From Micractinium sp. NFX-FRZ (lineage: Eukaryota; Chlorophyta; Trebouxiophyceae; Chlorellales; Chlorellaceae): DNA of 64,000 nucleotides. Position 1 is the stretch's first letter; the number at the start of each line of letters is the position of its first letter. Of this stretch, positions 4,799 through 51,500 are shown piece by piece. Position numbers and translations under genes: made by a program. The notes under the pieces are model-generated. The model had not been told where the DNA came from. It ran no database searches and saw nothing but the letters and a program-made list of their open reading frames with translations. Where the stretch lies: assembly GCA_029339195.1 (NCBI GenBank), contig JAPTJF010000005.1:372001-436000 (forward strand), in the 5' to 3' direction.

Positions 4799-6654
4799 CT
4801 ACAGGGCAGTTGGGGCGTGCTGCACGTGCTGAGCCACCGTGGACTGCAGCAGCAGTGCTGCCACCTGTCCCAGCTGCTGCCCGCTGAGCTGGCCATGCTG
4901 CTGCAGCCCCGGCTGCCACGCACCCAGCTGCGACGCCAGCATGAAGGGCAGCGGCAGAGGCGGCGCCTGTGCTGCCAGGAGGGCCATCCTCGCCGCCGGC
5001 TGCGGCCAGTATGCGGCGGGGAGGGCTTGCGGCGGTGGCAGGGGCAGCAGCGGCAGTGGCTGCAGGACGGAAGCCTGCTGCAGGAGGAAGGAGTCGCGGA
5101 GGGACAGCGCCTGCTGCTGCCACGTCAGCTCCAGCTGTTTCAGGGCTGCTGCCGTGGCTGCAGGGGACCCAGGCTGCGCCGATGGGTGCAGCAGCGCTTG
5201 CGCGATGCCTTCAGCCGCTGCTGCCAGGGGTGCGTGCCGCTTGCGCTTCCTCCCCCATCTGGGGAGCTCCGGAGAGGAGGTCTCTGGCAAGCCCCCTTGC
5301 TCCGCTGCCTGCTGAGCTGGCGTGTGTGGCTGCTGAGCTGGCGGGTGTGGCAGCAGTGGCGCTGCCCGCTGCAGGGCTGGGAGCCTCAGGGTCAGTGAGA
5401 GCTGGGGCTGGGCGAGGGAGAAGGTTGGGCCAGCAGGCACAGCGGGCGCACGGCTGGCTGTGGGGCTATCCAGCTGCCAGCAGGGCCACTGGGGGAGCGC
5501 GGTGCTGTCGCTGCTGAGCATGCTTTGCCCGCTGAGCTGCGCCGGCAGCAGGGTGATGGCCTCTGCCGTGCCGCAAAATTGCCCCAGCTTCTGCTCTGCC
5601 TGCGGCTCCAAGTTCTGCATGCTCTCCTGCCCCTGCTGCTGCTCAGCCCCAGCACTGGGCTCCTGCTGGTGCCGCCCCGCGGCGGCTGCCAGGTATGCGA
5701 GCGGGCACCACTCTGCTGTTGGCTGCTGCTGCTGCTGCCACGCCTGCTGCACAGCTTCAGCCTCCTGCTTGCAGGCAAGGAACACTGAGGTGGGAGCAGT
5801 GCCGTCGCACAGCCCGCCGGAGCCTCTGCTGGCGCCTGCGCCTGGCGGTGCCCCGCGCTGCAGTACCGGCGGATTGCCGCTGCATGCCCCAGCAGGCTCT
5901 GACCTGGCAGCAGCCCCTGCTCTCTCACGATCCTCCTCGCTGCCGCTGCCGCCCCCGCCCTTGGTGCGCTGGCGCCGCATCCGCCGGCGTGCCGCGTGCG
6001 CTGCCAGCTGCGCGCGGCAGCTGCGCTGGGTGCCGTCGAAGGCGGAGAGGCCGTGGAAGCGGCCGCACTGCGGGCAGGGGGTGGCAGTAGGGGCAGGGTG
6101 CATTGTGGGTTGAAGAGCGGAGGCCTGAGCATCTGTGCTGGCACTGCCAAGCAAACTGCACGCAGTCTGCATCTCACGGGGACCTGCAGCAGGGCGGGTG
6201 ACTCCCACTGCCGTGTGCCTCCTGCTGTTTGCTACGGTACGCACCTGCTGGCAGAAGCGGCTGGGCAGGCCGCCGCGCTCCACCACCGGCGCTGCAGCGT
6301 GCTCCTTGCACACGCGGTACCTCTGCAGAACGACGAACAGATAGTGTGTGTTTGGGTGTGGGTGGGTGCATCGTGGCCCAGCAGGTATGCTGCAAGTGAA
6401 CCCTGCCAGTGCAGGCGGTGGGCAGGTGGGGTACCCGGCCCCCCTGCCAGGCAGCTCTCCGCGGAGATCCGGAGCACAGCGGGACAATTTCCCTCTCCTG
6501 GCGCTCTCACCTTGAAGAATGCTGGCATGGACGGGTCACTGGCGAGGCTGGTGCGGCAGACCATACACACCAACGCCGGACCTGCATCAGGCCTGAGGTG
6601 CTGCCCGCCAGGCTCTGCCCGGGATTTCATCGCATCACTGCTAGCCGCTAGCAT
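4799..6654 (-). CDS. SBP-box (SQUAMOSA promoter-binding-like) transcription factor
   Basis: Predicted DNA-binding transcription factor of 496 aa, acting in the nucleus. Exons 6511-6654, 6245-6322, 4799-6067, joined in phase. The SBP domain is split over all three exons, roughly residues 30-110. The first zinc site has CMVC, then RYRVCKEH. The second has RFCQQCGRFH with a Cys 12 residues after the His (SAFDGTQRSC). Arg-rich AARRRMRRQR supplies the nuclear localisation signal at the domain end. The family core APVV..GG..RFCQQC is unmistakable. The first cysteine pair is spaced C-x2-C instead of the usual C-x4-C. The remaining 390 aa are Gln/Ala/Pro/Leu-rich with a second basic cluster (GRKRKRH). 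The family binds GTAC-core sites and in green algae includes nutrient regulators; the target of this one is unknown. ATG at 6654 is the first in frame; a start nine codons in (MKSRAE) is possible. Confidence 0.9.
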
Positions 6655-18023: not shown

Positions 18024-19121
18024 TTATGATGCCTCCCCGCCCGCTGCCGCTGCCTGCGCCTCTACATCCATGGGCGCTGCCCCGGGCTGCTGCTGCTGCT
18101 CCCCTGCTACCGCCGCCGCTGCTGCTGCATCCTCACCCCCGCCGCCAGCGCCGCCCTTCCGCTTCTTGCTCTGCTGCTCTGTCTTCTTCTTTGCCTTCTC
18201 CTTGGTCTCAAGCTTGTAGGCTGCGGGCAGGCAGGGCAGCAAGGAGGGGCACGCAGGCAGTGGGCAAGGGATTGACTCATTGCGAACCGCTTCTTGCAGC
18301 AGTGTGTGAACCGGTGTCGTTGATGTGCACCAAGGAATGATACTACTGCACGGCTCAACGGAAGATTCACACTAACGCACTGTAACACAGCATGTCTTCC
18401 ACCGTCGCCTTCAATGGCCCTAGCTGCCCAAACTTCAAGACCTCACACCACCACAGTACTGAGCAGCACAGCACAGCACAGTGCAGCGCGGCGCACTTTC
18501 CAGCGCCGCCTTGAGCGGCTCCACCAGCTCCCCAAACTCCAAGTCCTCCAGCGCCGTCAGCACGTCGTCTGCGCTGATGGTCTGCCGCCGCGCGTCCCGG
18601 CACGCGTCGTTGGCGGTGGCTGCCAGGTAGTGAATGAACAGCTTGCCCGCCTCGGAGCACGCCAGCAGCGCATCCTGTTCATTGGGAGGACAGAGGGCAG
18701 GGGCGGGCAGGGAAATGGTGGGTAACGATGGGCAGGTGAGCTTGGGAACGGGCTGTCCTGCTGGTGCTGGTGCTGCTCCTGCTGCTAGTCGTGTCGGACA
18801 CGAGTGGCCGTAGGCTACGCTGTCAGCAGAGCGATCACCAAGCTTTCTCGCCAACCGACTCAACCAACGATGGCTGCCAGCCCACAGCCCCCAGCTGCCA
18901 CCCGCCTCCCTTTGGCCACCACACACCTTGCTGATCTGGAAGTCGCGTGTGCCATCCCCCCCATTCTTCTCCGCATCCCACTGCGCCAGGCGCGCTTTGA
19001 GGATTCGCTTCAGCAGCGCCTTTGGCAGCTCCGCATCCACGCCCTCGCCGCCGCCGCCGCCGCTGCCCGCCTCGGCCGACTTGGAGGGGGAGCCCAGCGC
19101 CGCCGCTTCGGCAGTCGACAT
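18024..19121 (-). CDS. POLE3: DNA polymerase epsilon subunit 3 (POLE3/Dpb4), histone-fold
   Basis: Histone-fold subunit of DNA polymerase epsilon, also shared with CHRAC-type remodellers in other eukaryotes; 189 aa. Exons 18927-19121, 18497-18674, 18024-18220, in phase. A Gly/Ser-rich leader of about 30 aa precedes the histone fold: LPKALLKRILKARL (helix 1), then DALLACSEAGKLFIHYLAATANDA (central helix, read in two parts), RRQTISADDVLTALEDLEF and VEPLKAAL. The tail is Lys-rich (TKEKAKKKTEQQSKKRKG) and then Ala/Glu-rich, as in animal POLE3. NF-YB is the alternative family, but its DNA-contact motif is absent and the ISADDVL...LEF pattern with a charged tail fits POLE3. An in-frame ATG 14 codons upstream (19163) is a possible alternative start. 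It lies head-to-tail with MCM3. Confidence 0.88.
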
Positions 19122-19546
19122 GGCTGCTGTGTCAAGAGGGGTAACACGCACAGGGCTGAGCAAGTATCAGGGCTGCGCAGAGGAGAGCAGCACTTACCAG
19201 GAGCGCGGAGTGAGCAGGCGGAGACAGCCGGGGATGCATGCACTCTCGGGCATCACCTGCGGCTTGCTACGGGGGATTTGGGCCTGACTGGGGAGGGCGT
19301 GCCTTCAAATGGGGCCGTAGCAGGGCTGGGGACAGGAGCGCTGTGGGGAGTTGCAGAGGCTGATCAGTAAATGACGACGATCAAAGCGGGACGAAAGCCC
19401 GAACCAAGCGCCAGGTCCCGTCGTGCTGCGCGTTCCGCCGTGCTGCGCGAAGACTGGTGTTGGCTGGGCCGATCGGGGGCTGCTCAATTCATCGATCTCA
19501 CCCCATAATGGCATCACTCTAGTAGCGAGCCCAGCGGCGAGTGGCT
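19122..19546. promoter_or_regulatory. Divergent promoter region POLE3 / MED14
   Basis: 425 bp separate the two divergent start codons, so the promoters of both genes must lie here or overlap. The motif TGCTGCGCG occurs twice near 19422-19446. No TATA box was seen. Confidence 0.5.
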
Positions 19547-26166: not shown

Positions 26167-27807
26167 CTACCGCCGTGCCTGCTGGCCCCGCACCCTGGAC
26201 ACAAATGCCTTCACCAAATCCTTGATCTGGTCCCGCTTCTTGCTGGTGAGGAACTGCGGGCCGGCAGGTAAGGCAGGGAGGGGGGGGGGCGGGTGGTTGG
26301 GCACGATCAAGGGCAGGCCGGCTGAAAGGGCGGGGTGGCATGTGAGGCAGTGCACCCAGTGTGCAGCAGGGCTGACCCAACCACGAGTCCAGGTGGCAGC
26401 TGGCACGCCAGGCGCAATGAGTGGCACAGCATACACAAGAAGAGAGAGCAACAGATGGCGGGAATGGGGCCAGGGATGAAGCTGGGCAGGGCAGGGGTGG
26501 CGGCAGCTGCCAGGCAGCGCAGCGCACCTCCTTCCCACTGACTGTCGCGTCCTGCTCCCGCTCCATCACCTTACCCAGCGCCTTCTTATGTATCTCCCTG
26601 CACCACAAGGCACGGAGGGGCAGGGCATGTCAGAGGGGAGCAGTGCAGACGGGATAAGGCGGGGCTAGCAAGGTTGCGCACTAAGTTAGCGGGCAGAATC
26701 ACTCCCCCTTCCCTTCCCTCGTGGCCCACCAGTCGGCACTGCCTGCGCCTCCTGACCCCCCTGCCCCGTGCTCAAGCCTGTCTGGCGCTCAATGAGCAGC
26801 ACTCTGCCCGCCCGAGGGTGCACAGCAAGCACCACACCAATCACCCCGCAACCCCCACCAAGCACCCAACCTTTATGCTAAGCACCCCCTGTTTCAAGCA
26901 CCCACACCAAGCACCCAGGCAAGCACCCAATTTGAAGCACCCACACCAAGCCATGGCCACCCACTTGAACTGGTCCTTGGTGATGTCCCGCCGCCCGTAA
27001 TGCTGCTGCAGTAGGCTTGCAATGTACTCCTTCACGACCTCCTTGGCGCTGCCGCCTGCAGGGAGGGATGGGGGGCAGGGAATGTGCTGTGCTTGTGAAC
27101 TGGAGCTTGAGCAGGCTCGACGCGCAGGCGTTGTGCTGCTTTCAGCTACGCTCTTGGCGGCGTCTCCTGCAAGCCAGATGAGTGCAAGAGACGCACCACT
27201 GCTGCCGCCAGCGCCACCGCTGCCGCTGCCGCCGCCGCCGCTGCCGTCGCCGCCGCCGCCGCTTCTGCTGCTGCCAGGCTTGGAGGAGGAGCGCTCCAGC
27301 TTGGTCAGGGACTTGCGCTTGCCGCCGGCCTGCTCGCTGCGGTAGTCCTGCAGAGGGCGAGAGCAGCATACGGGCAGGGGGAGGAGGCAAGATTGGTGGA
27401 AGGGCTGCGCTTGCTACCCGGCTGCTCGCTGCGGCAGTGCGCTGGGTGGGTGGCGGGTTGGGCCGGGGAGGGGGAGAGTTCGCTGCCCTGAGAGAGCGCC
27501 CCCCAACACACGTCCCAGGAGTGCTAGGGCCGACAAATGTTGCGCACCCGCCCATCCAAATCTCTTCACAGTCCTCTCCTCCACCCATTGCACCCGCTAC
27601 CCGTGTGCGCTCCCCACTCTTGGTTGCCTACCATGAAGGACTTTATGCTGAGAGGCTTCTCAGGCTGCTGGGCTGCCTGCTGCGAGGCCACAAGCTCCGC
27701 TTTCAGCGCCTCAGCCGCCGCAGCCGCCTCAGCCGCCTGCCGCTCGAGTTCCGCCAGCTCAGCAGCTTTCGCCTCATCCACCCAAGCAGACAAATCCTCC
27801 TTCTGCG

Positions 27808-27849
<42 letters not shown>

Positions 27850-30800
27850 TGCCCTGCTGCGGCCTGCCCTGCTGCGCCGTGCCGCCGCCGCCGCCCGGCG
27901 GCCGGCTGCTCTGCCGGCTACCAGCGACGCTGCCCGGGCGTTGCGCAGCCTCGGCGCCCCCACTGGCGGCTGCCTCCAGGGCAGACCACTTGCGGTTGAC
28001 TTCCTGAGCCTGCTTGCGGGTGTCTGGGTCGCCGTGCGTGGTGCAGCGGGCACGCAGCGCTTTGGCCAGGCCTGCAGGCGAGGTGCGCAGGACGTGAGGC
28101 GGTGGGTGGGGGTGAGCCGGTTCGCACCAGGCCAGACTGATGGAGCGCGAACCGGCAGCCTTGCTGGGACGTTCTTCAGAAGCACGCCAAAATCTAGGCA
28201 CGACGGGCGGGCGGGCGGGCGGGCGCCCACCTGACTTGTCTAGCAGAGCCCAGTCAAAGGGCAGCAGGCGCAGCAGGCGCAGCAGCGCCCCCGCCAGCTC
28301 CACATCGGACGCCTCCGCTGCCGCAGCCTCCAGCCAGCTGCAGGGCAGAGCGGTCGGTCAAGGTGTAGGTAAGGCACAGGTGAAGGGACAGGGACTGGTG
28401 CAGGGCAAGGAGAGCAGCGGGGCTGGGCTACATAAGCGAAGGAAGGACGAGCGACGCCAGATCACGGCCACCCATCTGTGCGCTGTGGATGGTTCGCCAC
28501 CAGCTGCCCGGCAGCCACATGCATGAACGCGACAGGAAGCAGGGGGCAGTTCCAGCTGGTGCCAGCTGTGCAGCCAGGGGCGCTGACCTGGCGAGGATGG
28601 AGGCGCACTCAACATCTGCGGCAATGCGCTCCAGTGCTGCGTGGTCCGCGCTTTGCCGCAGGTTCTGCATCGGGGGGCGGGGCCGCAGGCAGGCAAGCGG
28701 CAGTCAAAGACAGGCTGATCGGCAGGCTGACTGGCCCTGGCACGCAGTTTGGGGAGAACACAGGCTATCGGGGGCATGCACTCCTAGGGCCCTGGACCTA
28801 AAACCGTGCGCCAGCTAGCATGCCAGAAGGCAGCAGCATGCCTGCACAGGAGGCTCTCCACACCGCACTCCACCCCTCTCCCATGCCACACTCTCACGCT
28901 CCTCAACGACAATGTAAGATATCTGGTGTGCGTTCTGTCTTCCTGCACGCGCAAACCATGCGTGCAAAGGGCATGCCTCGGGATTGCAGGGTTCACTACT
29001 CACGTTCAGCAGGAAGATGCGGGTCTCAGTCCCTTCTGTCTTTGAGAGTAGCTGCCGCAGCGGCGTCATGTCGCCTGCAGCACCAGGAGGGGAGGGCGGG
29101 CAGCGCACAGCGGTTGGCCACCGGTGCGCAGAGCAGAGCAGCACGCAAGTTCGTGGGCATGCTCATACCAAGCCCGAACACCATGCCCCAGGCAAGTTAC
29201 CACGCCAGGGCACCCAGCAGGCCAACCTAACAAAGGCGGCAGGGCAGGTGGGTGGGCAGCTGGCTGGCTGGGCTGGCTGGCTGGCTGACCTGTGGAGGAG
29301 AGCATGAGTGCCCGCACAACTTCCTTGGCGCCGTCGCGCTGCGCCTGGCGCTGCACACAGGCGAGCGGGGCGGGCGGAGAAGGTGGGCGGCAGGCAGGCG
29401 AGGCGGGAGGGCGTCATGGGCGACAAGCAGGGCTGGCGGTTGTGCTACAAGCTGGAGCGAAGCAACATGCATGGCCCTCTTGTGACGCCCGCCTAAAATG
29501 CCCCAATGCAACCATCCCGCTCTCCTCCAACACACGCTGCCGCTCCCTGCCGATGCCTGCCACCCACCCACCACCCATTTCTTTCTAATCCACACAATTG
29601 CAAGCACACACTCTGCCAGAGCACTGGAAACACACACGAGGCATACACACACACACACCTGCTCCTCCGACACACACTGCCGCTCCTTGCCAATGCCTGC
29701 CACCCTCCCAACCCATGTCGGCCATACCATACAGCCACAAGCAAAACTCTGTCACAGCACTGGTGAAAACACACACACACGAGGCATGCATACACACACA
29801 CCTGCTCCTCGGAAACGTACTGCCGCTCGTTGCCAATGGCTGCAGCATATTTGCGCTCCAGATTCTTCTCCAAGTCGTCCTCGCTGGCAATGTCGCCTGC
29901 TGTGGTGGGGGGCGCGCACAGCATGCACACCAGGCACAGCATGGTCAAGCAGGCTCAGCAGGGGCAGCATGTGAAACAAGCTGTGCTGCAGCGTCTCCCT
30001 GCAATGGCAACCCTGCCAGCACGGACAGCTTGATCAGGCGATCGCGCAGCCGTGGCAGGCAAAGCAGGCAGGTGCGCATTGCCAGGGAGACCCCACACAT
30101 GCTGAATGCTGCTGGAGGATGAATGTGCAGCATCACCCTGCCCACCCGCCCTGCAACCGAGCCAACCCATGCCCACCCACCGTCGTCCCGCCCGCGCCGC
30201 CGCTTCTTCTTCCCCACAGCATCCTTCATCTTTGCCTCCCGCCGAGCCGCATCCTCCTCCTCATCCCCCTCCCAATCCAACTCCTTCCCAATCTCGCTCC
30301 GCTTGATGTAGCCCCAAATGGCGCCGGCGCCGGACGCGTCTGCAGGCACAGCACAGGCAGCGTGGTCAGAAGGGTGGGCGGGTGGGTTGTTCAAAGGGGA
30401 CATTTGACAGCAAGCAAGCTGGGATTGTGTGGTGGCACACCATCACCGTCGCTGCACACAGCACTGAGCAAAGCAGCAGAATGCAGCTTGGCCCCAGACG
30501 GCCCAACGCAGCACAGCCCGCCATGAGGCGCAGTCCAGCATAACACGGTGCAGTGCAGCACAGTGCAGCACGGTACACACACTTACCTGCTGGCTCCCCA
30601 CCCTCCTGCTTTTCCTGCTTGGCGCCCGAGCGCTGCCGCTTGATCTGTGCGCCGCGGGCTGCACCAGCACAGCAGCGTTGGGAAAGGCAGGGCAAGCAGC
30701 TCAGCAAAGGCATGCATCATGTAACCACTGCGGTGCTCCTGAGCCATTGGTCCTGTCCATCCCAGAAAACAAGAACGCCTCACACACGCTGGTCAAGTAA

Positions 30801-33800
30801 ATCGTGGCTCACCAGCCTTCTGGGGCCGAGCGTCCCCATAATCCTCCTCCTCCTCCTCCTCAGACTGAGGGGCTGACGCCTCCCGCTGCTGGCTGCCCTT
30901 GCGCTTGCGCCCCGTGCTACCGCCGACGGCCGGCTGCAGAGGGCGGCGGGGGCAGGAGCGCAGGCGGCACCGGTCACGAGCAGGCAGGCGGGCAGGCGGG
31001 TGGGTGGGCAGGCACACCGGCGACATGCACATTCCCAGGCACGCCAGGCATGGACGTCAGCCCCTCCACAGCAAGCACTTCTCACGAACCAATCCCCCAC
31101 CCAGGGCGCTGGACACCCAGCCAGGCAGGAGGAGGCCGCTCACCCGCCACCCCTCCCACCCACCCACCCCACCGCCATTACCTCTTCCGCCACCAGCAGG
31201 TCCTCTCCAGCCTCTGCCGCCTCCGCCTCCATGTCAGCAGCCAGGTCCAGCACGCGCGCCGCCTCCCGCAGCCCCGACAGCATCGCTCCCCCCACTGTGT
31301 CTGGGTGCTCCCGCGCCGTGTGCTCCCCAGCAAACAGCAGGCGCCGCCCCACGGGCTGCGCCAGCGTGTCGTACTGCTGGCCCGACGCGCCCACGGCGAC
31401 GTACGAGTAGCTGCCGCGGGTGTAGGGCTCTGCACGCAACAGAAGGGGGGGCGGGGGCGGAGCCGTACTGTGAGGCGTGAGCACAGGATCTGTACAAGGG
31501 CAGTGCTGGTTTCAGGCGCCCACAGCAACGCCACCCTTTGTCTGCCCTCTAGCAAAGCATTGTGTGCCCTCACGGGCAATAGCGACCTCAAGGGCCAGTC
31601 ACTCGGTTACTTGCCTGAGGCCCACTGGGAGGCGGTGTAGGCCACAGGCTCGGGCACCTCCACCCCTGGGTGTATCCGGCGCAGCACTGCCAGCGCAGCT
31701 TCTTTCAGCGCCTCTGGCGTCTGCTCCTCGGCGGCCCGTGCCGACGCGCCTGCAGGGTGGCGGGAGGGGGCGGAGCTTAGCGGGTAAAGGGGCGGGGGGC
31801 GAGGAGGGTGGCAGCAGCAGACACCGTCATTACAGAAGCGGGCAGTCAGGCAGTTAGGCAGGCAGTCAGGCATGCAGGCAGCCGGACTGGCAGGAAGGCA
31901 GCCCCCATCCCATCCACACGACCATCGACGTTCACCCACCCACTCACCCGAGACGAGCGCCGCCAGGGTGTTGGACCCGCTGAAGCGGTGGAAGTTCCAC
32001 CACATGAAGCACCGCCCCCGCTCCGCCTCTGCAAAGAAGATGATTGTGCAAGTGTGTTGTGAATCCTCAAGTCAGACAAAAGCACGTGGCCTGAGTCGCA
32101 CAACAACGCCACTTGCATGCGGCGGGCAAGCGGGCCCAGCACCCTCCATCCTAGCACTGCGGTGGGGCTATGCGTGGCCACCTGTGAGCTCCCTAGCGGC
32201 CGCTGCAGATGGCACACAGCGTCACCACGCACACATCTGCCTGGCACCAATCTACGCAGAAGATCTCACCTGTGGGCTCCCCTGCCGCCCCAAAGTAGTC
32301 CACCTCGTCGTTCCAGAAGACGGCGGGGAACTCCAGCACCACCTGCGGGTCAGGCAGCGAGTGAAGCAACGCATTGACCGGTTGCCTTGCGTGCAGGACC
32401 CGCCGGGAGGCGGGCGAGCGGCGGGCGCGTGGGGCAAGCTGGGTGTCCTTCACCTTCCCCACCACACCCCGGCTCCCATGCATGCCCTTTCTTCCTATTG
32501 TGCCACGCACCACCTCCCCTAACCCCCTCGTTCCCCACCCGCTCCCGCTCCTACTGCGGCCAGCTCGACCGCAGAGGCGTCTAACAACATTCGCCGCCGG
32601 CTTGCCACCTCGTCGCGCCACAAAGCGCATGCCACCCTTATTACCCAATAACGCTACACACATCTTACACCCGCCTTGTTCAGGTCGCCAAAGCCCAGCC
32701 TGGTCACCACCCGGGTGCCTCATGTCCAAGCCTTGCCCTTCACTCCCTTCCGTCTTTTTGTCCGTGCCTCCCTTCCAGGCTTTGCCTTTCTTTTTAGCCC
32801 ACCTTGTTCAGGTCGCCAAAGCCCAGCCGGTTGACCGCCTCCTGCTTCCAGGGCGGCAGGTCGGGAACAAAGCGGATGCCCCCCGCCTTGAGCACCCCCA
32901 GCGGCACCGTCACAATCACCGCGTCACAACGCAGCACCTCGCCGCTCTCGGTGACAACCTCAACGGGCGAGCCGGTGGCATCCCGGATCTGTGGGAGGTG
33001 GGAGGGACGGGCGAGTAAGGGTGGGTGGGGATGGAGTGCACGGGGAGGTGATGGTGCTGGGCATAGTGAAGAGGGGCGCGGTACCCAGGCGGGGCAGAAG
33101 GCCGCTCCCGTGCGCTGCGCCGGCAGCCGCCATGGCCGCCCTCCTACCTCAGTTCACCCCTGCTTACAACCCTGCTCGCCTCTCTGTGTCTGCCTGCACC
33201 CATGCCCTCGTCTGTCCATCTGCCAGCTACGTCTGCCCACAACCCTGCCCTCGCCCCGCCTTTCCCCTGAACCCACCTCCACAACAGGCGTGTTGAGGCG
33301 CAGGCTGTCTCCCAGGGTGGCGGCAACCGCCTTGAAGACGGAATCGTAACCGCCCACCACCATGCAGTGTGGGCCGCCAAACCCGCCGGCGTCCTCGTCC
33401 TGGTTCCAGAAGGGGGCAGAAATCTGCAGCAGGGAAAGCGACGGGTGCAATGTGAGGCAACCGGATTGGGAAGAACAACGGAAAATCTACCAGAAGATTG
33501 ACTTGGAAGTGAACAATGCGGTGGCTCCAGTGGGAGGGTGGGTTGCAGGGCAGGGCAGGGCGGGGGCAAGCATGTGCTCTGCGCAGGCATGGGTTCACCC
33601 ACGTCCTCTGCCTCATCCAGCACTCTTAGCCCCAGGAGCGGCCTCGGCCTCCCAGAAGATGCATTTGATCACCCGCCCACCTCCCCAAGGCAAGGCAAGT
33701 CGAGGCAAGTCCTCGCCCACCCACGTCCCCAAGGCAAGTCCTCACGCCATGCCCCCCACCCACCCACCTCATCCAGGCGCGCGCTGCACCCATACTCCAG

Positions 33801-36800
33801 GTTGGCCCAGTGCCAGTGCAGCAGGCGGCGCTGGTCCGCGCTGATGGGATCCACAGCAGGCACGTCGTCAGCCTCACCCTCTGCTGCCACTGCAGCCTCC
33901 ACCGCCGCTGCCTCCACCGCTGCTGCCTCCGTGCTCGCCTCCCCCCCAGGCTCCTGCTTCACACCAGCAGTGCCGTTGGCAGCAGGCTTCGCCTCCTCCT
34001 CCTCTTGCTCCGCCCCTGCCGCCACCATGGCCGCCACAGCCGCCACGGGCAGCGGCGGCTCTGGCGCCGCCTCAAGCGGCTGCTTCTGGGGTGAGGGCGA
34101 TGCCAGCACAGAGGCCAGGAAATCGTCCACCTCCTCCTGCTCCCCCCGAGGAGCGGCCGGCACCCGAGGCGACTCCAGCAGCAGGCCTTCTGTCAGCTCC
34201 AGGCTGTCGCCCAGCAGTGTTGGTACGGGAGCAAGCGCCGGCTCTGTGAGCAGCGCCAGAGCGCTCTGCACATCGGGGTCGGGAGCGACGTCCACAGCCG
34301 GTGGCGCTGGTGCAGGGGCCGCTGCCGGCGCCACCGCGACCGCCGCCTCGGTTGCCGCCTCGGCCTGCTCTACCTTTGCCACCGCCGCCGCCGTCGCTGC
34401 CGCCGCGGCTTGCGCCGCCGCTGCCGCCTCTTCCGCCGCCTCTGCCTGCTTCACCCGCTGCTGGATGGCTCGCGTCAGCATCTCTCCGTAGGACACCTGG
34501 GCAGCAAGAAAGCACAGGGCAGGGCAGGGGCGTGTCAGCTTGCAGAGCAGACACGTTGCGTTAGAGCACATGCCACAGGCAATGCACGGGCACAAGCAAG
34601 GGGCAGAAGTTGGGGCGGCGCTGGCAGCGCCACACTCGTTCACCCACACAGCCCAATTGCTCCTCAGCCCAACCACCCAAGCAATCAGTTCAGAACATTA
34701 CGCCGACAACACTCAACAAGCAATCCCCCAGCCCCTGCTACCCACCGTATTGCGCTCCTCCTCGGGCATCTCATCCAGCAGGTCTGCCACATCATCCATC
34801 AAGTCATCCCGCAGCCTGCAGGCAGGAGCAGTGCGGGAAGTGGTTTGGAAGGTGAGTAATGCACGCTTGAAGAGGCACGCAGGTCCGCCACACCCATCCA
34901 TCAAGTCGCCCCGCAGCCTGCAGGTACTCCAAGTGTATCAACACCCACACACACACAAAGTGACTGAGTGAGTGAGTACCCTTCAGCGGGGCATGCCTGC
35001 CACATCACACACACCCATTGCGCAGGCCATAGCAGGATGGTGCATGTTGTATAGCAGTTGGGAGACAGGAGAGACCGGAGGAGCACAGCAAGTCCTCTCC
35101 AGACACGTCCACCGCCCCAGGCACTGTCAGCCATCACTGGTGGTTCTGTCAAGCAGCGGCAGCTGCCCTCCTCACTGCGGCCCATGCGGCTGCACTCCTC
35201 ACTCAGCCCCCCAACACAACTCGCTTTTTAACCCATAAACCCAGCTCACTTCTCCACCGAGGTGTCCAGCTCCTGGGGCACCGCCACCCCTGTGGTTGTG
35301 TCCAGCAGCGGCAGCTGCTCCCCGAGCTCGTGCAGCCGCACCCCCAGCTGCTTGCAGAGGACGGCGGAGGGGTCGGAGCGCAGGCCCTTCTCCACGTCTG
35401 GCTCTATCCCAGTGATGATGCTGGCGCCTGTGAGGCAGGCAGGAGGGGAGGGGGCACATGGGAAGGCAGGGAGGCAGGGTCAGCTGCTTGCAGAGGGCGG
35501 CAGAGCGGGCGGAGTGCAACGCCCAGGCCATCAACTGGCTCTGCCCCAGTGTTGGTGCTGGCGGGTGTAGAAGAAAGGGAACGGAAGGAGGCAGGTCACA
35601 TTTAGATCTTGGATGCTGGACAGAGGCAGGGGAGGTGGGCAGGTGGGATGCCGGGTGCTGCACTTGGGCCAGCCGGGCCAACGCAGTGCCTGCCTGCCAG
35701 GCTGCATCAGTCAGCACAATGCGGATCGCAGGGACAGGCCAGGCCAGCAGGCTAAAGAAATTTTGTCGCGTATGCTATTTTTTTTGAATTTGGAGTGATG
35801 CACACGCACCGAGGTCCACTGGCGCGGTAAAGCCGCCCTGCTGGTAGGAGTGCACCCGCCCGCCCACTCGATCGCGGGCCTCTAGCACTGTCACGTCGGC
35901 GCCGTTGCGCTGCAGCAGGGAAGGAGCAGGAGTGGCGGAGGGTGGAGGCGGCAGGGCAGCATGGAGGCGTGCGACTGTTGCTAGGGCAGGGCGGCAAGGA
36001 GGGTAGCACTGCCTGAGCTCACATCAGGCACCAGCAGCCAGCAGCCAGCAAGGCCGCCGACAACTGCACTGCTGGCAGCAAACCAGCATGCAGCTAGCTA
36101 GCTGGAAGAGGCGCAGCGGGGCGGCAGGCAGGGACAGCCGAGCACAAATGCGGGCCCACGCCCATACCTTTAGGTGCAGAGCGGCGGTGAGTCCCGCCGG
36201 CCCCGCGCCCACCACCACCACGCGCCACCGCCGCCGCCGCTTCTCCTCCCGCTCCCGCTGCTTCGCCTCCTGCTGGCGCTCCTTGAACCAGGCAGGAAGC
36301 CCTGCTGCTCCGAGGTAGTCGTTCACCTGCAGGGCAAGAGAGGAAGACAGGACAGGAGCTGAGCTATGTGCCTTTAAGAAGACAACGACAGCAACAGTAA
36401 CCAAGCCATGCTGCGCAGCTGGTTGCAAGCAGCAATGTGCACCAGGCGGTCAAGAGAGGCAGGCGGGCACGGCAGGCGGCATCCTCTGGCATCAGACAGG
36501 GAAACACCCAAACAGAGGGACACCAGGCCAAAGCAGGCCTGGCACCCACCCAGCCTCGGATCTGCGCCTTCTTGTGCGACAGGTCCACACCCAGCGCCTC
36601 CCCCGTGCGCTGCCGCAGCATCTTCTCCGTCGTCAACTGCAGGGCAGGCAGGCCGGGCAAGAAAGGCTCGGTCAAGGGAGAGGGCAAAGCGCGAAGGACA
36701 GGGGAGCACAGGCACAATTGGAGGGTGCACGGCAGGCAGAGCAGCAGCACCCCAGAGCCGCAGGGCATGCACGGTGCCAGGAGGCGTGCAGGGCACAGCA

Positions 36801-37999
36801 GGGACCCAGCAACGCGGCACCTTCTGCTGAGCGCTGCTGATGAGCACCAGCGCGCCGTCAATGGCGGCAGTGAATTGTGACAGCGCCACCGGCTGCGGGT
36901 ACAGCAGCTCGACACAGCCCCACAGAAGCAGTGTGCATCACTCCAAGAGCCTCACATTCATGTCCACAGAGGCCATGATCTCAAACAGCTTCCCCGCCAT
37001 CTCGTCATCGCTGGGCCCGCTTGGCACCACGTAGGCGTCGTCCGGCGGCGGCGGCAGCCGTGCAGCCACCTCGGGTGGCAGCGGCACCCGCGGGTCTCCC
37101 CTCAGCAGCCCAAAGTTGATGGCACCCTGGCGCTGCAGGAAGGCGTAGGCATCCGACAGCATGGCCTCCTTGCCAGGTGGCGCCAGCGCTGCACGGAGGG
37201 CGGGAGGAAGGAGAGGGTGTGAAACAGGGGCTGTGCATGGAGGGCAAAGCTCGCAGCATACAGTTGCCCATCCGCGGGGACATTGCAGCGGCAGCGTTGC
37301 AGCGACGGCAGTGCATCAGCAACATCGCAGCAGCGGCGCCACAGCGGCAGCAACAAAGCAGCACACCGGGCAGCACCACGCAGCACCAAGTAAGCCGCAG
37401 AACTCACACCGCGCTCCACCATTGGCCCCTTGGCTGCCTCCGTCACTCACTCACCCAGGCACTCCTCCTCCAGCAAGAAGCGAGAAGTGTCTGCATCCCA
37501 CCTGCCCAGCACAATGTTCCTGCACCCAACAAATCAAAGCAGCGGCAGCAAGGCAGGAATGGCTGTTGTGGGGCAGTGGGCTGCCTGCTGCCATGCCTGC
37601 CTGGGCCCGGTGCTGCGGCAGATGTGCAGGGCAGTAGCACCATTTGGCAAGCTGGATCCTACAGTCCTTGCAGGACAGCACGGCACCAGGCTGGCTGATA
37701 CAGTGCAGTCCAGCCGGAGCGATGACAAAAACCCATCTGCTGCCCCCAACGCAACTGCTGCCACTGCCACCACCCCAACCTGTGGCGCCCGCTGCCCACC
37801 TGGCCTCTCGGTAGTCGGGGGCACAGTGCGCAAACCTCAGCTGCTCCGCCTTGTTGAGCGCATATGAGCGCAGCCCGGCCTGCACGGTGGCGCGGCCTGC
37901 GGGAAAGGCAGCGTCTTCGCCGCCGCCGCCCGCTCCGCCCTGCCGCCGGGTGGCGGCGCGCGCCGAGTAGCGCGACTTGCTGTAGCCCTGCTGCACCAT
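26167..37999 (-). CDS. KDM1: LSD1/KDM1-type histone demethylase with Set2-like C-terminal tail
   Basis: FAD-dependent lysine demethylase, 1454 aa from 29 exons: 37800-37999, 37455-37519, 36956-37188, 36821-36892, 36550-36636, 36168-36326, 35810-35909, 35250-35427, 34746-34815, 33768-34496, 33277-33423, 32803-32988, 32270-32342, 31948-32028, 31615-31749, 31182-31429, 30813-30933, 30587-30658, 30181-30339, 29802-29896, 29290-29350, 29004-29074, 28588-28664, 28231-28337, 27632-28071, 27197-27347, 26965-27055, 26528-26597, 26167-26253. Domains: SWIRM (about 67-160); FAD site [11 protein letters not shown] near 260; amine oxidase to about 915, with catalytic-type Lys in TVPLGVLK and [17 protein letters not shown]. 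An Ala/Glu-rich insert of about 200 aa sits where LSD1 has its Tower. After basic/acidic linkers come a TFIIS-N/LEDGF-like helical domain (about 1092-1195), poly-Gln, and an SRI-like domain (about 1373-1448). One intron after exon 15 has a GC donor. Confidence 0.88.
27809..27848 (-). repeat. CAG repeat encoding poly-Gln in the KDM1-like gene
   Basis: About thirteen CTG triplets on the plus strand read as CAG in exon 25 and encode a glutamine run between the TFIIS-N-like and SRI-like domains. Confidence 0.9.
28205..28224 (+). repeat. (GGGC)n run
   Basis: Five consecutive GGGC units on the plus strand within an intron of the KDM1-like gene; the G runs could form a quadruplex. Confidence 0.8.
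29520..29850 (-). repeat. Triplicated exon edge at KDM1-like exon 20 donor
   Basis: The donor end of exon 20 (plus strand CCTGCTCCTCGGAAACGTAC, true copy from 29801) recurs in diverged form at 29658-29700 and 29520-29562, each followed by TGCCGCTCC-TGCC-ATGCCTGC. AC-dinucleotide runs flank two copies. Confidence 0.8.
32674..32828 (-). repeat. Exon-edge duplication at KDM1-like exon 12 donor
   Basis: A 27-bp block beginning CCTTGTTCAGGTCGCCAAAG at 32802 (true exon 12 end) is repeated exactly at 32674-32700 inside the adjoining intron. Confidence 0.9.
34794..34925 (-). repeat. Exon-edge duplication at KDM1-like exon 9 acceptor
   Basis: The start of exon 9 with its acceptor (plus strand CATCAAGTCATCCCGCAGCC, 34797 on) is repeated at 34895-34925 with one change. 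Confidence 0.88.
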
Positions 38000-38398: not shown

Positions 38399-40057
38399 AT
38401 GGCTGGTGATCCGGAGGCCATCGCTAAGGTGCGGCGGAGCCGAGGGTGAAGAGTGGCACGGCGGCTCTGGTGCCTGCCCTGCCCTCTGCAAGCCAGCCGA
38501 GCAATCATAGCATTGATCAGGATGATGTCAGATGCCTGCACAGCGCCCCCCGGTGCTGGCGGAGCGATCGACTCGCGGTGTTCGCTCCTGCCCCTCTGCA
38601 CCTGCTGCTTGGGCAACCTGGTGACGTTTGGGGTTGACAGGACCGCTCAGAGGTCGAAGGTGCAAGCGGTCGCAGATGCTTCTGCCACCGCCGCCGTCGT
38701 CGCACGGACCGCCATGCCTGGGCTCCGCCAGACCGAGGTAGCAAGTGCACCTGCTCAGGCTCATTCCACCCTGCTTCTTGCATGGAAGCCCCAAACCTGC
38801 AGGCGTTCACCGACCACTATTACGCCACCTTTGACACGGCGCGGGCCAACCTGGCGGGCCTGTACCAGGACCAGAGCATGCTGACCTTTGAGGGGCAGAA
38901 GTTCCAGGGCACGCAGGCGGTGCGTGCTGCTTGCCGCCGGCTGCCTGCTGCATGTGCATGTGGCGCGTGCTAATCAGGGCAGGCCGATCAGGGCCACGCC
39001 GGCGCTGTTGGATGGCAGCGACGCGATGTGGCTGGCGGCAGCGAACGGGAGGTGCCACTGCCGCCTGCTCCCAGCTTCTGTCCTAGATTACGAACTTGTC
39101 CGCAATCACCGGCTGCCCCAACTTTTGATGGGCTCTGGGATCTGCCTGGTCCCGCCTGCAGATCATGGGCAAGCTGACGTCGCTGCCGTTCCAGCAGTGC
39201 AAGCACCACATCAGCTCGCTGGATGCCCAGCCCAGCCTGAGCTCCGGAGTGCTGGTCTTTGTCACCGGCCAGCTGCTGGTGAGGGAGCGGGTGCGGCAAG
39301 TTGTGATGGAGAGCATGGGGGTGGTTTGGAGGCTGGAGGAGGGCAGCGGGTATGAAAGCAGGTTCTCCTTGGTCAGCGGCAGCCAGCTGCTGGTGTGTGA
39401 GGTCGGGGCAGGAGAGGGGGGAGCGGGAGAAGGCTGCAGAGGGGAGCTCGTCTCTCGACGTCAGCTGCGGTGCCGGGGCAGCACGCATGCCGTTGTGTGT
39501 CAGCCAATTCTTACAGAGCCACTGCCCACCCTCCAACCCAATGTGCCCCGTGCTTCCTTTCACCCTGCTTCCCTGCCTGACCCACCACCCTACTGCCCCT
39601 CCTCTCCTTCTCACACCTGCCCGCAGCCCGAGGGCGAGACCAACCCCCTCAAGTTCAGCCAGACCTTCCACCTTGCGCCCGTGGGCGGCAGCTATGTCGT
39701 CACCAACGGTGAGCCAGCTGCTGGCCGCATGTGTGGGCAGGCTGATGTGCTGTGCACGCTGCTGTGCCATGCACGGGTGAGGCAGGGCAAGAGCGCGACG
39801 CTGTGTTGGTGGGGTTCGAGTGGCAAGAGGCAGGAGGCAGCTTCGGTGTTGCAAGTGGTGAGGCGGTGCCTGGCTCTGCAGCAGGGTGCTTGCTCATGAA
39901 GCCACCCAGCGGTAGCAGGTGCCTCACGCCGGTGCCTGCCAGCCTTCTGATGCCGTGCTGATGCACTCCCTCATGCTTGCCTCTGCTTACTCTCCTGCCT
40001 TGCGACTCGCCCTCCCTGTCCCTTGGCGCAGATCTGTTCCGGCTGAACTACGGATGA
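38399..40057 (+). CDS. NTF2: Nuclear transport factor 2
   Basis: Small nuclear import factor that carries Ran-GDP into the nucleus; 123 aa against about 125 in the family. Exons 38399-38428, 38803-38919, 39162-39278, 39627-39708, 40032-40057, in phase. The first exon encodes only MAGDPEAIAK, matching the family start. The body is strongly conserved: HYYATFD, LYQDQSMLTFEGQ, MGKLTSLPFQQCKHHISSLD, LVFVTGQLL, LKFSQTFHLAP, VTNDLFRLNYG at the end. The protein is complete with no odd residues. It is divergently paired with the KDM1-like gene. Confidence 0.97.
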
Positions 40058-43500: not shown

Positions 43501-46500
43501 CAGTTGGGGAGTTGGCAGGGCAGGAAGGCCCGCAGAGGGCAGGCGAGGCAAGCCTGCTGCCAAGTCGACCCAGGTGCCAGCATGTGCTGGCTTAACACAC
43601 TTTATGTAGACCTGATCATAGTCCTGGGCGGCTCACGGCAGATAGGCGGCGTCACATTCCTACTGCCACCAACATTTATGGAACACGCAGATTATGTATC
43701 CGGGGGGCTCACCGTCAAATCCAGGCGCCACACGGTTCTGGCCTCTGAGACGCCTGCTGGAGGGGGGGCGGCAGGGTGGCAGGCGGGGGCACTGGTTGTA
43801 GGGGCATGGTTAACGACTGGTGGAGGCAGGTGGAAAGGTGTGGCAGAGGGGCGAAACACGCGGGAGGGACTTGGATGGAGGTATATATAGTTAGGCGCAA
43901 GCAGTGCGGCACGATAGGGTACCAATCAAGGCCACAAGCACACGCGCACAACAACTGAACAACACGGTTATGCGGCCCACCATCGGTCTCCAGCTGTCCT
44001 CCATACACATGAGCATGTTGCGTGCCATCAGCAGCCTGCCGCTCTGCACCTTTTAAAAACACGCACATCTCACCCCGCCAGACCACTACAGCCACAGGCT
44101 GCACCCTAAGACCAAATGTATATATTAGTTGTCAACTCCACATCTGGGCGGCCTAGGCGCACCATCGGTCTCCAGCTCTCCACCATACACATACAGAGCA
44201 TCCTGCCAGAGAACCATGGTGTGGCGCAGGCGCGCGGCCGGCTGCCCCGACAGTCCGTGCCGCCGCCGGCTGTCGGGGTCGGCCTGCAGACGCACGAAGG
44301 ATGGGAGTGTGGGCAGGGCAGCTCAGGGCGGACGGCGCGGGGGAGGGCGCGCAGCACGCAGGGCGAGGCAGGGCAGAGGAAGCCGGCCATAGCCAAGGAG
44401 GCAAGGCAGGTGCAAGGTCGGTTCGAGCCTGTCACGCCGTCACAACCGCCAGAGCGGCTGTCGCCCGGCGGTGCCAGGCCTCACCTTTACATCCACCAGG
44501 GTCACACTTTCTTCCTGGGGAGCCACAATGGCCAGCTTGCTGGAGGGGGTGGGGTCCAGGGGGTCTGCAGCAGCCACAGCGCAGGTGTGGTGTTAAAACA
44601 CTCCTGCAGGCTGCTCAGACTAAGACACCTTTTGGAGCAAGCACAAAGCCCAGGAAACTGGGCATGGATTCGAGGGTCCGGAGTGTGGCGGGCCACAACC
44701 AGCGGGCTGGGTGGGGGATCCAGCAAGGTTTGCCAGTGCATGCATGCTGAGCGACCAGTTGACCAGTTCGTGCTAGGCGGCCAGTTGACCAGCTCATGCC
44801 GGCCCTGCTGGCTGGCACCACCCAGGCCTGCCAACAGACTGCCCACGGTGCCACCACTCGCCTGGGAGGGCCCCATCCCAGCATGCACACCAGGCCAGGT
44901 CAACCCCACGAGCACAAGCAGGGCAAGCCCACAGCAAGCCCTCGGCAAGCACCTGGGATGCCTCCACCGTAGCAGTAGATGCGCCCACCCCAGGCGGCAC
45001 ACTGCATGAAAATGCAGGTGGGGGGCAGCCTGCAGGGGCAGGCGCAGGGGGGAGGGGAGGCGGTAGGGAAGGTGGGGGCAGTAAGCAGCAAGAGCCGGCG
45101 CAGGGGGAGGGGGCGCCGGGGTGGGGGGTGGGGGCCGGAAAGCAGCAATGCCAGGGCGATGCACTGGGTTCATCAGGGCAGGGCAAGGGCCACGTGGCGT
45201 GTCTCGGCACTGTCAGCCTCTGCAGCAGGGGCAGGGGCGGCGGAGCGACAGACCATGCAGTTTGGTGGCACAGCACAGCACAGGCACAGCGCAGCACGCA
45301 CTGGCATTTGAGGCGCCTGACGACAGCGCCGTCCACGTTGGTTGAGGAGCGCCGGGGCGGTGGCGGAGGGAGGGAGTGACCCTCTGGGAAGGTCACCCCA
45401 TACCTGCAGAAATGCAGCCCCAGGGATGGAAGAGATGGAAGATGTAATCAAAATAAACATGGGACCAACCAAGCAAGCACACAACGTGAGCCTGTGGAAA
45501 GACCCTTCACAGCACACACAGGGAAAACGCAGCAGCGGTGTATTACATGTTAAACAGAGTACTACACCATAACGCAACAGTGACGCTACCCTGCCTGCCA
45601 CCCCAAAACCGCCGCTGGTGAGATGCTGCCTGGCCTCTTACCATGTGGGACGCCTCCTTTCGTCCGCTTCTTCCCGTGCAAACACACCGCACCTTCCCCG
45701 CCCCTTCAGGGGACAGTGTAAGGAGACCTGACCCCCCTCCCTCCAGCCCCACCCACCCACCCTCCCACCCCATCACCAGCATAAGGGTTCAACCCCATCC
45801 CCCACAACCCTTTCATACAAGGAAACCATTTGTCTTTGGAACACAACGGCAGGGTGCTCCAGCACCCACCTGATCGGGTGGTGGCAGCCCTCGGCCATGT
45901 GGAGCGCGCGGTGCTGCGCCGTGCTGTCAGAAGTATGCCGCCCTCCAACCACATAATCACAGCTTGCCTGCAAGTGATGCAGGGAAGGAAACAGGGAGGC
46001 AGGGTGGTGTGGGAAAGGTATCACGCAGGATGGCCGGTGGGCAGGTACGCGGGCAGGCAGGCAGGCAGGCAGACAGGCCTGGCTCCGCACGACCCACCCC
46101 ATTTAGCGACCTGCATGGCGCAGCACCCTCCCCATTCCATCTAGCGCAGCACCCTCACCATCCCAACTGACCCGCAGCCCCGCCCCTCACACTCCACACC
46201 CCACCCCCAGCTACGTGCCTTTAATTGCTGTTGCCACGGTCAAAGGCATTGTTCACGCCATCGTACCGCTGCCACACCATCGACACAGATTCCTGACACA
46301 TATTCCTCCCACAGGCCCTGCCGCCAGCCCACCCAACAAACGGCCACTAGCCTGCATAAAGTTGCCGAGTGCCTCAAAGGCGGTGGCGCGCCGCACGTGC
46401 GCCTTGCCATACACCGCCTGCACGCTCGGTGGAACGCGCACGTCTGCACGGCGAGCAGTGGTATGGGAAGCGTGGCGGCCATTCAGCAGGGCAGGCAGTG

Positions 46501-48524: not shown

Positions 48525-51500
48525 TCAGTGCATCTGCTCAGACGCCGGCAGCTCGCTGCGCGGGACCAGCCGCAGCACCAGCTGCCGCCGGTTGCCGTGC
48601 GTCTCCTCCACCAGAATCCTGCAGCAGGAAAAGCCACGCAGTACGAGGGGAGGGAGGGGTTGGCCTGGGCAACGGGGCGGCAAGTGAGCGGCGCCCGGCA
48701 AGCAGCGAGGGTTGCAAGCCAAGGCCATGCCGCCTCGCGTTGAAGGATGCAGCCAGGCGGGCGCACAGGCGGGCGTGCTAACAAGGGTACTAACCTGACA
48801 GCACACTTGTCAAACACGGTGTAATGAGTGCTGCCATCCTTGCTGCGTACTGTCTGCATCGGGGCACAGGGGCAGGGCAGGGACGGGCAGGAGAAAAAAA
48901 ATGAGTCGGAAAGCGGACAAAAGCAGGAGGGTACTTGATCAGCAATGCACAGGTACAGAACTGCGTGCACACGACATGGGGCAGCACATTCACAAGAGCC
49001 CTCTCCACATCAACACGTATCCCACCTGCTTTACACAGAACTTCACACACAAGACCCCGACAGCACAGGGGCACATCCCAACACAGCCGACACCCCTCCT
49101 CTTCCCACCTGCTTCTCTTCGTCATAAACAAAGTTGCTGTCAGCCGCCGGCACAGCCTTCTTGCGCCCGCCGCCGCCGCTGCTGCTGCCGCCGCCGCCGT
49201 CTGCTGCTGCTGCCGCCGCTGCCGCTGCTTCTTCGAGGTACACGGGGCCCTCGATTCCGTACTTGGGGACAAACACGATGAGGCCGTTGGCGCGCACCTG
49301 CATGGGGGAGGGAAGCGCAGCGACAGCGGGCGAGGATGTGAGAGGATGGGGGAGGGTTGGGAGAGGACAGAAAGGGCTGGAGGTGGGGCACTGCCGGTGG
49401 TGCCGGCAAAGGCCGCATGGAAGGCTGGGTGGAGGAAAACATGTTGGTGCTGAGCTGGTGCTGAGCTGGCGGGCCTCAGTAACACACGCATCAGCCTGGC
49501 GCTGAGCTGGCGCTGAGCTGGCGCTGAGCTGGCGCTTTGGGAAGACTCGCCTTGGTGACGCGTGCATCCGCCACCACCTGCCGGCTCTTGAAGAAGATGA
49601 GGGTGTGCAGCTCAACTGACGCACGCCCAGCCATCTGGGCATTCCTGTTGTGGTTGGCAGCCGTAGGTAACAAAAGCATGATGTCAGGGTACGGTTCATG
49701 AGGGCGTGCAGTTCAACTGACGCACGCCCAGCCATCTGGGCATTCCTGTTGTGGTTGGCAGCCGTAGGTAACAAAAGCATGATGTCAGTGTACGGTTCTT
49801 GAGGGCGTGCAGCCCAGCTGAGGCACGCCCAGCCACCTGGGCATTCCTGTTTGGTTGACACCGCCACGGGAGTCGGGCGGGCAGGGTGGGCGGGCAGGGG
49901 CATCAGAGTTGGGTGGGTGGGCATGCTAACAAATGGGGGCAATGGGAAATGGGGCAGCACAGGCCACAGAACGGAGCCACGTGCACAATCACCAGGAGTG
50001 GCCAACGTGTGCCCACCTGTGCCGCAGGTTTGCATTGTCCACCACCCCGTGCATCAGCTCGCGGTCGCGCAGGCCCTCTGGCAGCGGGCGCAGCCCCAGG
50101 GCGGCCATCAGCACGCGGTGCACAATGACGTCGGCGTAGCTGCAGCATGCGTATCAGGCAGTGCATGTATTTCAGTATCAGGCAGTGCATGTATTTGAGT
50201 AGACTTGTTAACATTTCGTAAGTTGGAAGATGCCAGGTAGGGGAGCACAATGCTGTCGGCAAGCTGCAGCGCAGACACAGGGGTGCATTCAATGCACTGC
50301 TGCCATATCGTTTGACTGTGCAGGCGACGGTAGCGGGGAGGTGCACCGTGACATCGGCGTAGCTGCAGCATACAGGCGATGCAGTGCATGAACCTCAGTC
50401 TACTTCGAATCAGTCTACTTCAAACGCAGGGCAGCAGGGAGCTCACCGGCGGATGGGGGAGGTGAAGTGTGTGTAGAGGGGCGCCGCCAGGCCGTAGTGG
50501 TGGTACTCTGGCACCGACAGCTCGCCTGCATGGCAGGAGTGCAAACGGCTAGGTGGGTGGCTGTTCAGGTGCAACGGAGGCAGCTAGGCAGCCCGGCAGG
50601 CAACCCTGCAGGCCCTCCCACCTCCCCCTCTGCGCCCGCGCTGTCCGCCTGCCCCCTCCAGGCACCCACCCCTCCACAGGTACCCACCGCCGGCGTCTTC
50701 AGCAGACGCCCTGAGTCATGCAGCGTCATGCGCCAGGCCCAGATAGGTCATATGCCCTGCCTTGCACCGGCCTTGCCTGTCAGCCACCTAGGCAGGCATG
50801 TTGCCATCACGCCTTCCCAGTTACAACCCAACCACCCACCGGAGGAGCAGTAGAAGGCCCGGGCCATGCGTCTGCCCCGCCCGCCAGCCACCCAGACAGG
50901 TCACATGCCACGCCTCCCGAGACACAACCCATACATTGTTCACCCACCCACCGGAGGAGCAGTAGACTGCCTGCGTCATGCAGCGTCATGCAGACAGGTC
51001 ATATGCCATGCCTCCCCAGCTACAACCCACCCACCCACCCACCGGAGGAGCAGTAGACTGCCTGCGTCATGCACCGCGTGGCCATGATGCGTAAGAGCCT
51101 GTTGAAGTAGGGGTCGTCGGCACGCACGCAGCCGTCCAGGGACTCTGCCAGCGACTGCACTAAAGGCAAGGGAGGGAGGGAGGGAGGAAGCGGAGAGAAG
51201 ATGTGGAAAAAGCGGGTCTGGTTGGGAAAGGGGGGTGTCAAAGCCCCCCAGGGGCTCTGCCAGATACTGCCTTGGGTTGAAAAGAGAGCAAGGGGGGAAG
51301 TCGAGGGTCCAGGGGTTTCGTGTTTGCACCCGTGCAGCAGCGGCGGCAGCTCGGTACTGCATGGCATGCCTGCACCGGCGCCACCCGTGTGCACTGATAC
51401 TGGCAAGCTCTCAGCAAGCTCCGGGAAATCCTTCAGCAAAAGCTACGAGCTGACATGCCCTGGCAAGCTATGACAAGCTGCCCGCAAGCTGCTTGCCTTG

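Follow-up and report, generated by a model that had tools for sequence, protein, structure and literature searches.

A green-algal LSD1-family gene with a TFIIS-N-type and SRI tail as a probable orthologue of land-plant LDL3

Introduction

The closest described relatives of the gene discussed herein are the LSD1-like 3 (LDL3) proteins of land plants, which belong to the LSD1 family of H3K4 demethylases. In Arabidopsis, LDL3 is reported to need its SRI domain for binding phosphorylated RNA polymerase II (Pol II) and to remove H3K4me2 co-transcriptionally (Mori 2023, PMC10690457). With reference to Rebehmed 2014, the same paper also places an SRI domain in the LDL3 proteins of rice, poplar, Selaginella, and Physcomitrella. 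It suggests that the domain is conserved across land plants, and it describes Arabidopsis LDL2 and FLD as being without SRI. A TFIIS-like domain in LDL3 had been noted earlier (Martignago 2019). Overexpression of LDL3 is reported to lower H3K4me2, an effect not given by the K949A form (Ishihara 2019, PMC6467990), and a dependence on Paf1C has also been reported for the Arabidopsis protein. Here we describe an LDL3-type gene in a 64,000-nucleotide stretch of DNA (hereafter the window) from the green alga Micractinium sp. NFX-FRZ (assembly GCA_029339195.1, contig JAPTJF010000005.1, positions 372,001-436,000, forward strand).

Other described proteins share parts of this design. LDL1, LDL2, FLD, and animal LSD1 (KDM1A) have SWIRM and amine oxidase domains and the catalytic lysine. 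In Set2/SETD2 methyltransferases, a TFIIS-N-like auto-inhibitory domain (AID) and then an SRI domain follow the catalytic part. PNUTS and IWS1 carry a TFIIS-N-terminal-type helical domain (TND), and are not known to be demethylases or to carry SRI. The HEAT/TND region of IWS1 is reported to bind the elongation complex (PMC13175633).

Results

Gene model

An earlier note on this DNA, made by eye, had read a 29-exon frame of 1455 amino acids. That frame exists on the minus strand; all 28 junctions preserve phase, and no internal stops occur. GT-AG borders occur at 27 of these junctions; the remaining donor, that of exon 15 (31614), is GC, and the flanking exons 15 and 16 both align to homologues (means 4.0 and 3.94 of 4). 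The model was built by splice-aware prediction and hand curation and was then judged by exon-wise support from four relatives: Micractinium tetrahymenae (P0001), Micractinium sp. (P0002), Chlorella sorokiniana (P0003), and C. vulgaris (P0005). One exon of the earlier frame did not survive this comparison. Exon 4 is aligned by none of the four relatives, the other 28 exons being aligned by 3.2-4.0 of them on average, and its removal raises the DEK_C match from a partial 30.1 bits to 44.4 bits covering all 54 positions. Exon 4 is therefore probably an intron, and the corrected model has 28 exons, 27 junctions, and 1431 amino acids. Exon numbers below follow the 29-exon model, and coordinates are collected in Table 1. 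An automatic dynamic-programming (DP) gene prediction, which gave 40 exons including many micro-exons, was set aside in favor of the curated model.

Table 1. Features of the LDL3-type gene, its surroundings in the window, and a related locus elsewhere in the genome
Feature	Position	Strand	Remarks
LDL3-type gene	26167..37999	minus	28 exons (29 in earlier model); ATG at 37999, stop codon ends 26167
SWIRM	37112..37816	minus	exons 1-3; PF04433 below cut-off in window, above in P0023
DEK_C	36315..37014	minus	exons 3, 5, 6 once exon 4 is removed; outer limits approximate; PF08766
Exon 4 of earlier model	36821..36892	minus	probable intron; 0/4 homologues align; DEK_C complete without it
Amine oxidase	31248..36224	minus	exons 6-16; PF01593 8e-87; long low-complexity insertion in exon 10
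Exon 10 insertion	33768..34496	minus	Ala/Pro/acidic, inside amine oxidase
Catalytic-lysine codon	32803..32805	minus	equivalent to LSD1 catalytic lysine
Intron 16	30934..31181	minus	between oxidase and tail; in-frame ATG at 31032
TND (HEAT/TFIIS-N-type helical domain)	27986..29350	minus	exons 21-25
Linker motif SIKSFMDY	27342..27649	minus	exons 25/26, between TND and SRI
SRI	26200..27044	minus	exons 27-29; PF08236
Exon-piece repeats	29490-29843, 32670-32839, 34793-34924, 35140-35323, 35345-35518
NTF2 gene	38399-39896	plus	ATG at 38399 by eye; PF02136 1.4e-13 for 39129-39896
SBP-type transcription factor domain, open stretch	4802-6535	minus	PF03110 4.3e-19
CBF/NF-Y-type histone-fold domain, open stretch	18438-19166	minus	PF00808 6.2e-7
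Tandem array	49597-49857		101-base unit, 2.6 copies, 93% match
Second SWIRM + amine oxidase gene (L016)	G000 C274:45001-54900		SWIRM at 46491, oxidase exons to about 51175

Domains of the predicted protein

As read from the gene model, a single reading frame encodes SWIRM, DEK_C, an LSD1-type amine oxidase, a TND, and a C-terminal SRI domain. The SWIRM match (PF04433) reaches 21.8 bits, or 24.8 bits without exon 4, and so falls short of the 28.6-bit cut-off in the window protein; the homologue from Myrmecia bisecta (P0023) exceeds it with 35.7 bits. DEK_C passes its Pfam cut-off even in the 29-exon protein. The C-terminal half of the oxidase matches human LSD1 at 1.4e-67, and the equivalent of the catalytic lysine, which we take to be K661 of LSD1, is lysine in all 20 aligned rows. 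With SWIRM (itself below cut-off), an LSD1-type oxidase, and this lysine, the window protein has the features expected of the enzymatic part of LDL3, a clade PII LSD1. An NCBIfam scan of four homologues returned families of the bacterial/archaeal flavoprotein type, and among the 25 matches listed for each, no family came close to its cut-off.

The insertion in exon 10 may occupy the Tower position of LSD1, where LDL3 homologues are described as carrying an insertion (PMC6558185). Within it, a short stretch was seen by eye to be near-identical in P0001, P0002, and P0003, a motif for which we have no explanation.

Both tail domains had been recognized by eye in the earlier note, and both readings proved correct, the TND by way of relatives. 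The window protein by itself stays below the TFIIS-N cut-off (PF08711 11.7, 14.6, and 16.7 versus 20.6 bits). The C-terminal TFIIS-like domain, a feature of LDL3, is recognized here through homologues: M. bisecta P0023 reaches 26.3 bits, C. vulgaris P0005 reaches 21.1 bits, and 13 of 16 TND-family members match PF08711 at E<=1. When a 16-row TND profile was compared with the PDB, it matched the TNDs of PNUTS (7e-9) and IWS1 (2.9e-7), which makes these two the best sequence matches. A structural model of the P0023 TND has a fold like that of PNUTS, its best fold match, and of the SETD2 AID. Sequence and fold thus both match known TNDs.

For SRI (PF08236), the whole protein scores 23.5 bits, equal to the cut-off of 23.5, and the isolated domain exceeds it with 29.7 bits (E 8.1e-7); 14 of 17 family members match the profile at E<=1. 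Residues known to contact the Pol II C-terminal domain (CTD) are largely retained. The K2506 equivalent is lysine in 112 of 115 SRI domains. Of the four positions counted in addition to V2483, three are kept and the H2514 position is lost. The domain therefore combines a Pfam match with kept CTD-contact residues, and it provides the C-terminal SRI that characterizes LDL3. Between TND and SRI, the linker motif conforms to a family pattern, [IVL]x[ST]Fxx[FYW], that is present in 87 of 114 TND-SRI linkers and in 0.5% of shuffles.

Relationship to LDL3

In a tree of the C-terminal half of the oxidase, the window protein stands beside its Micractinium relatives (87-88% identity) and within one clade with land-plant LDL3. 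This clade is split (100/98) from human LSD1 and the second LSD1 of the same genome, an outgroup of two rows that are both long-branched, with the paralogue joined from exon pieces and with Arabidopsis LDL1, LDL2, and FLD left out. The window oxidase has 53-57% identity to seven land-plant LDL3 rows versus 47% to human LSD1.

LDL3 proteins of Arabidopsis (At4g16310), Physcomitrium, and other land plants share with the algal protein the SWIRM domain, an amine oxidase with an insertion, a long tail, a TFIIS-like domain, and a terminal SRI. The algal protein differs in its shorter N-terminus and in its DEK_C domain, which is above cut-off here and is not listed for the Physcomitrium, Wolffia, and Selaginella proteins scanned. 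Its gene has 27 introns, compared with the 5-19 given for clade PII (PMC6558185). The earlier note knew of no described LSD1 with this architecture; that view has to be withdrawn, because LDL3 already combines the oxidase, the TFIIS-like domain, and SRI in land plants. What stands of its interpretation is a predicted eraser of histone methylation with a putative polymerase-binding tail, and what falls is the novelty.

Occurrence of the fusion in relatives

A search with the tail only, scoring the 8000 candidates that had most words in common with it, returned four proteins of 1401-1516 residues. All are amine oxidase proteins, and the one from C. sorokiniana is named LSD1-like protein 3. A search with the oxidase only, among candidates of about 800-2546 residues, gave 823 matches, of which the best 120 were listed; short LSD1s were left out because of the length rule of the tool. 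Profiles for TND and SRI, seeded from the window and iterated on the same 121 proteins (the best 120 of 823 plus the window; E<1e-3), found TND in 120, SRI in 115, and both in 114. The order amine oxidase-TND-SRI holds in all 114, which span chlorophytes to flowering plants. With reversed sequences, no TND match was obtained and SRI reached at most 6.5 bits. Even the first single-sequence pass, limited to the 70 tails (of 121) in which a text pattern located the oxidase end, reached land-plant tails with E-values down to 1e-6 for TND and 6.5e-13 for SRI.

The same fusion is present in Chlorella-group genomes as single annotated proteins of Micractinium (two records), C. sorokiniana, and C. vulgaris, and it is also found in Myrmecia. 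In M. bisecta P0023, all five domains exceed their cut-offs in one protein. Four of five do so in C. vulgaris P0005, where SWIRM falls short at 26.7 bits, and the two Micractinium proteins have SWIRM matches of 24.7 and 26.9 bits, also below cut-off.

Related genes in the same genome

The genome holds a second SWIRM and amine oxidase gene, for which no match to the TND-SRI tail was found at tblastn E<=1. A 3.4-bit TND-like stretch behind its oxidase was taken as chance. A search of the genome for the SRI family returned nothing, as did its controls, and it missed the intron-split SRI of the window itself, so it is uninformative on absence. Two AWS-SET loci (C292 and C240) were read for a Set2 with a TND-SRI tail. 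Over 9.9 kb (L019) and 14.9 kb (L020+L021), they gave no SRI match and a 4.3-bit TND match in a search that exon splitting weakens.

Discussion

Weighing the LDL3 reading

For the window, the sequence, the domain order, the orthology, the catalytic lysine, and the conservation of most CTD-contact positions are shown. We consider the gene likely to be an LDL3 orthologue in a green alga, encoding an LSD1-family H3K4 demethylase with a polymerase-linked mechanism. The SRI domain would grip the phosphorylated CTD of elongating Pol II, the TND might provide a second hold on the elongation complex (on the Paf1C or SPT6 side) or a gate on the enzyme, and the flavin adenine dinucleotide (FAD)-dependent amine oxidase would demethylate H3K4me2 on nucleosomes along the body of the transcribed gene. 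By comparison with Arabidopsis LDL3, the algal protein may likewise bind phosphorylated Pol II and remove H3K4me2. Whatever partner and mechanism are assigned to the TND in the alga are wholly putative.

Several results weigh against this reading. The evidence for the alga is genomic sequence, and the functional evidence comes from Arabidopsis. The split between LDL3 and other LSD1s hangs on the two long-branched outgroup rows. The SRI matches of the two Micractinium proteins, at 18.8 and 22.7 bits, are below the 23.5-bit cut-off, and the H2514 equivalent in the window is glycine. A 17-row SRI profile matched no SETD2 or Set2 chain in the PDB at E<=10. With Foldseek, the P0023 SRI model had DXR helices at the top of its list, none below E 0.6, and in the fold comparison the Set2/SETD2 SRI tied with these helices; E-values for the P0023 TND model were also weak (best 0.009). 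Among the 121 proteins, P0004 just misses the TND threshold (E 0.0014), and six proteins of 829-1441 amino acids (P0044, P0059, P0083, P0085, P0097, and P0107) show no SRI, four of which have fewer than 1000 residues.

One alternative is that an ordinary LSD1 gene and a neighboring gene for a TND-SRI protein have been wrongly joined by gene prediction, or that one locus yields two transcripts. The earlier note held that no start separates the halves. This does not strictly hold: intron 16 contains an in-frame ATG at 31032 (and another at 31026), from which the frame is open through exon 17. If intron 16 were retained, the oxidase frame would run 13 codons beyond exon 16 and then stop, and the first methionine of the spliced tail appears only in exon 19. 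Separate transcripts in the alga are possible for these reasons. A scan for bacterial promoters found none, which says little here. However, joined single proteins occur in Micractinium, C. sorokiniana, C. vulgaris, Myrmecia, and land plants, which makes a two-gene artefact unlikely; both tail domains are present in 114 of the 121 proteins; and P0084, named as a Trinity transcript open reading frame, has amine oxidase, TND, and SRI in one frame. We therefore regard this alternative as very improbable and the fused reading frame as real, as judged from genomic DNA and the proteins of relatives.

It is also conceivable that the algal SRI now serves a different partner and no longer binds the phosphorylated CTD. 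Consistent with such drift, conservation is lower in the three SRI exons than in the other exons (mean identities of 28%, 47%, and 49% to the four close relatives), and one contact residue is lost. Nevertheless, the near-invariant K2506 equivalent, the two further contacts that are mostly kept, and the reported requirement of SRI for binding phosphorylated Pol II by Arabidopsis LDL3 (PMC10690457) leave this explanation doubtful. A further alternative concerns the TND, which could be an auto-inhibitory gate as in Set2, holding the oxidase back as long as SRI has not met the polymerase, instead of serving as a second anchor. We consider this idea possible though not probable. In Set2/SETD2 the two tail domains have the same order; the P0023 TND model matches the AID fold, and the P0023 SRI model matches the Set2/SETD2 SRI fold about as well as it matches DXR helices. 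Set2/SETD2, however, is a SET methyltransferase, whereas the window encodes an FAD demethylase with neither SET nor AWS among its Pfam matches; a WW domain is likewise not in its Pfam list. In addition, the Set2-like SPT6 motif Y[KR]IPK that accompanies the AID (pattern [FYW][KR][ILVM]P[KR]) is found in none of the 121 proteins.

Implications of the LDL3 reading

Every part of the architecture has already been described. In the first listings of the open-licence literature, we found no paper that reports SRI in an algal LDL3 or treats the LDL3 TND as Set2-AID-like, and none that joins all parts for a green alga. The printed SRI claim covers land plants, and extending the TND-SRI tail to chlorophytes appears to be a modest addition; the apparent resemblance of the TND to the Set2 AID would be another.

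It is tempting to go further and speculate that the HEAT/TND of LDL3 is the counterpart of the Set2 AID and, with SRI, forms a co-transcriptional control module common to a writer (Set2) and an eraser (LDL3) that predates the split of chlorophytes and land plants. SRI would read the phosphorylated CTD, the TND would read SPT6 or Paf1C (such as Leo1) and gate the oxidase, and [IVL]x[ST]Fxx[FYW] would be a docking peptide in the role of Y[KR]IPK. We rate this full proposal as unlikely, yet a TND that reads a part of Paf1C and gates the oxidase would, if real, explain the Paf1C dependence of LDL3. The resemblance of the LDL3 TND to the AID also raises a testable question: are the writer and the eraser switched on by the same two-part module only on a moving polymerase? 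More generally, if LDL3 acts in the alga as it does in Arabidopsis, then transcription-driven removal of H3K4me2 goes back as far as the green lineage itself rather than being a trait of land plants, and the process could be studied in a one-celled alga.

Other features of the window

An NTF2 (nuclear transport factor 2) gene lies head to head with the LDL3-type gene, their ATGs being about 400 bases apart, and the two may share a promoter region. The window also holds SBP-type and CBF/NF-Y-type domains and a tandem array (Table 1).

At five sites in the LDL3-type gene, a piece of exon of 30-71 bases recurs in the neighboring intron at a distance of about 100-150 bases (62-93% identity). Three of these repeats include an exon edge (exons 20, 12, and 9), and two lie inside exon 8; the end of exon 20 occurs in three copies, at spacings of 140 and 143 bases. 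This looks like the growth of introns by local duplication, and some of the copies gave false exons in the automatic DP prediction.
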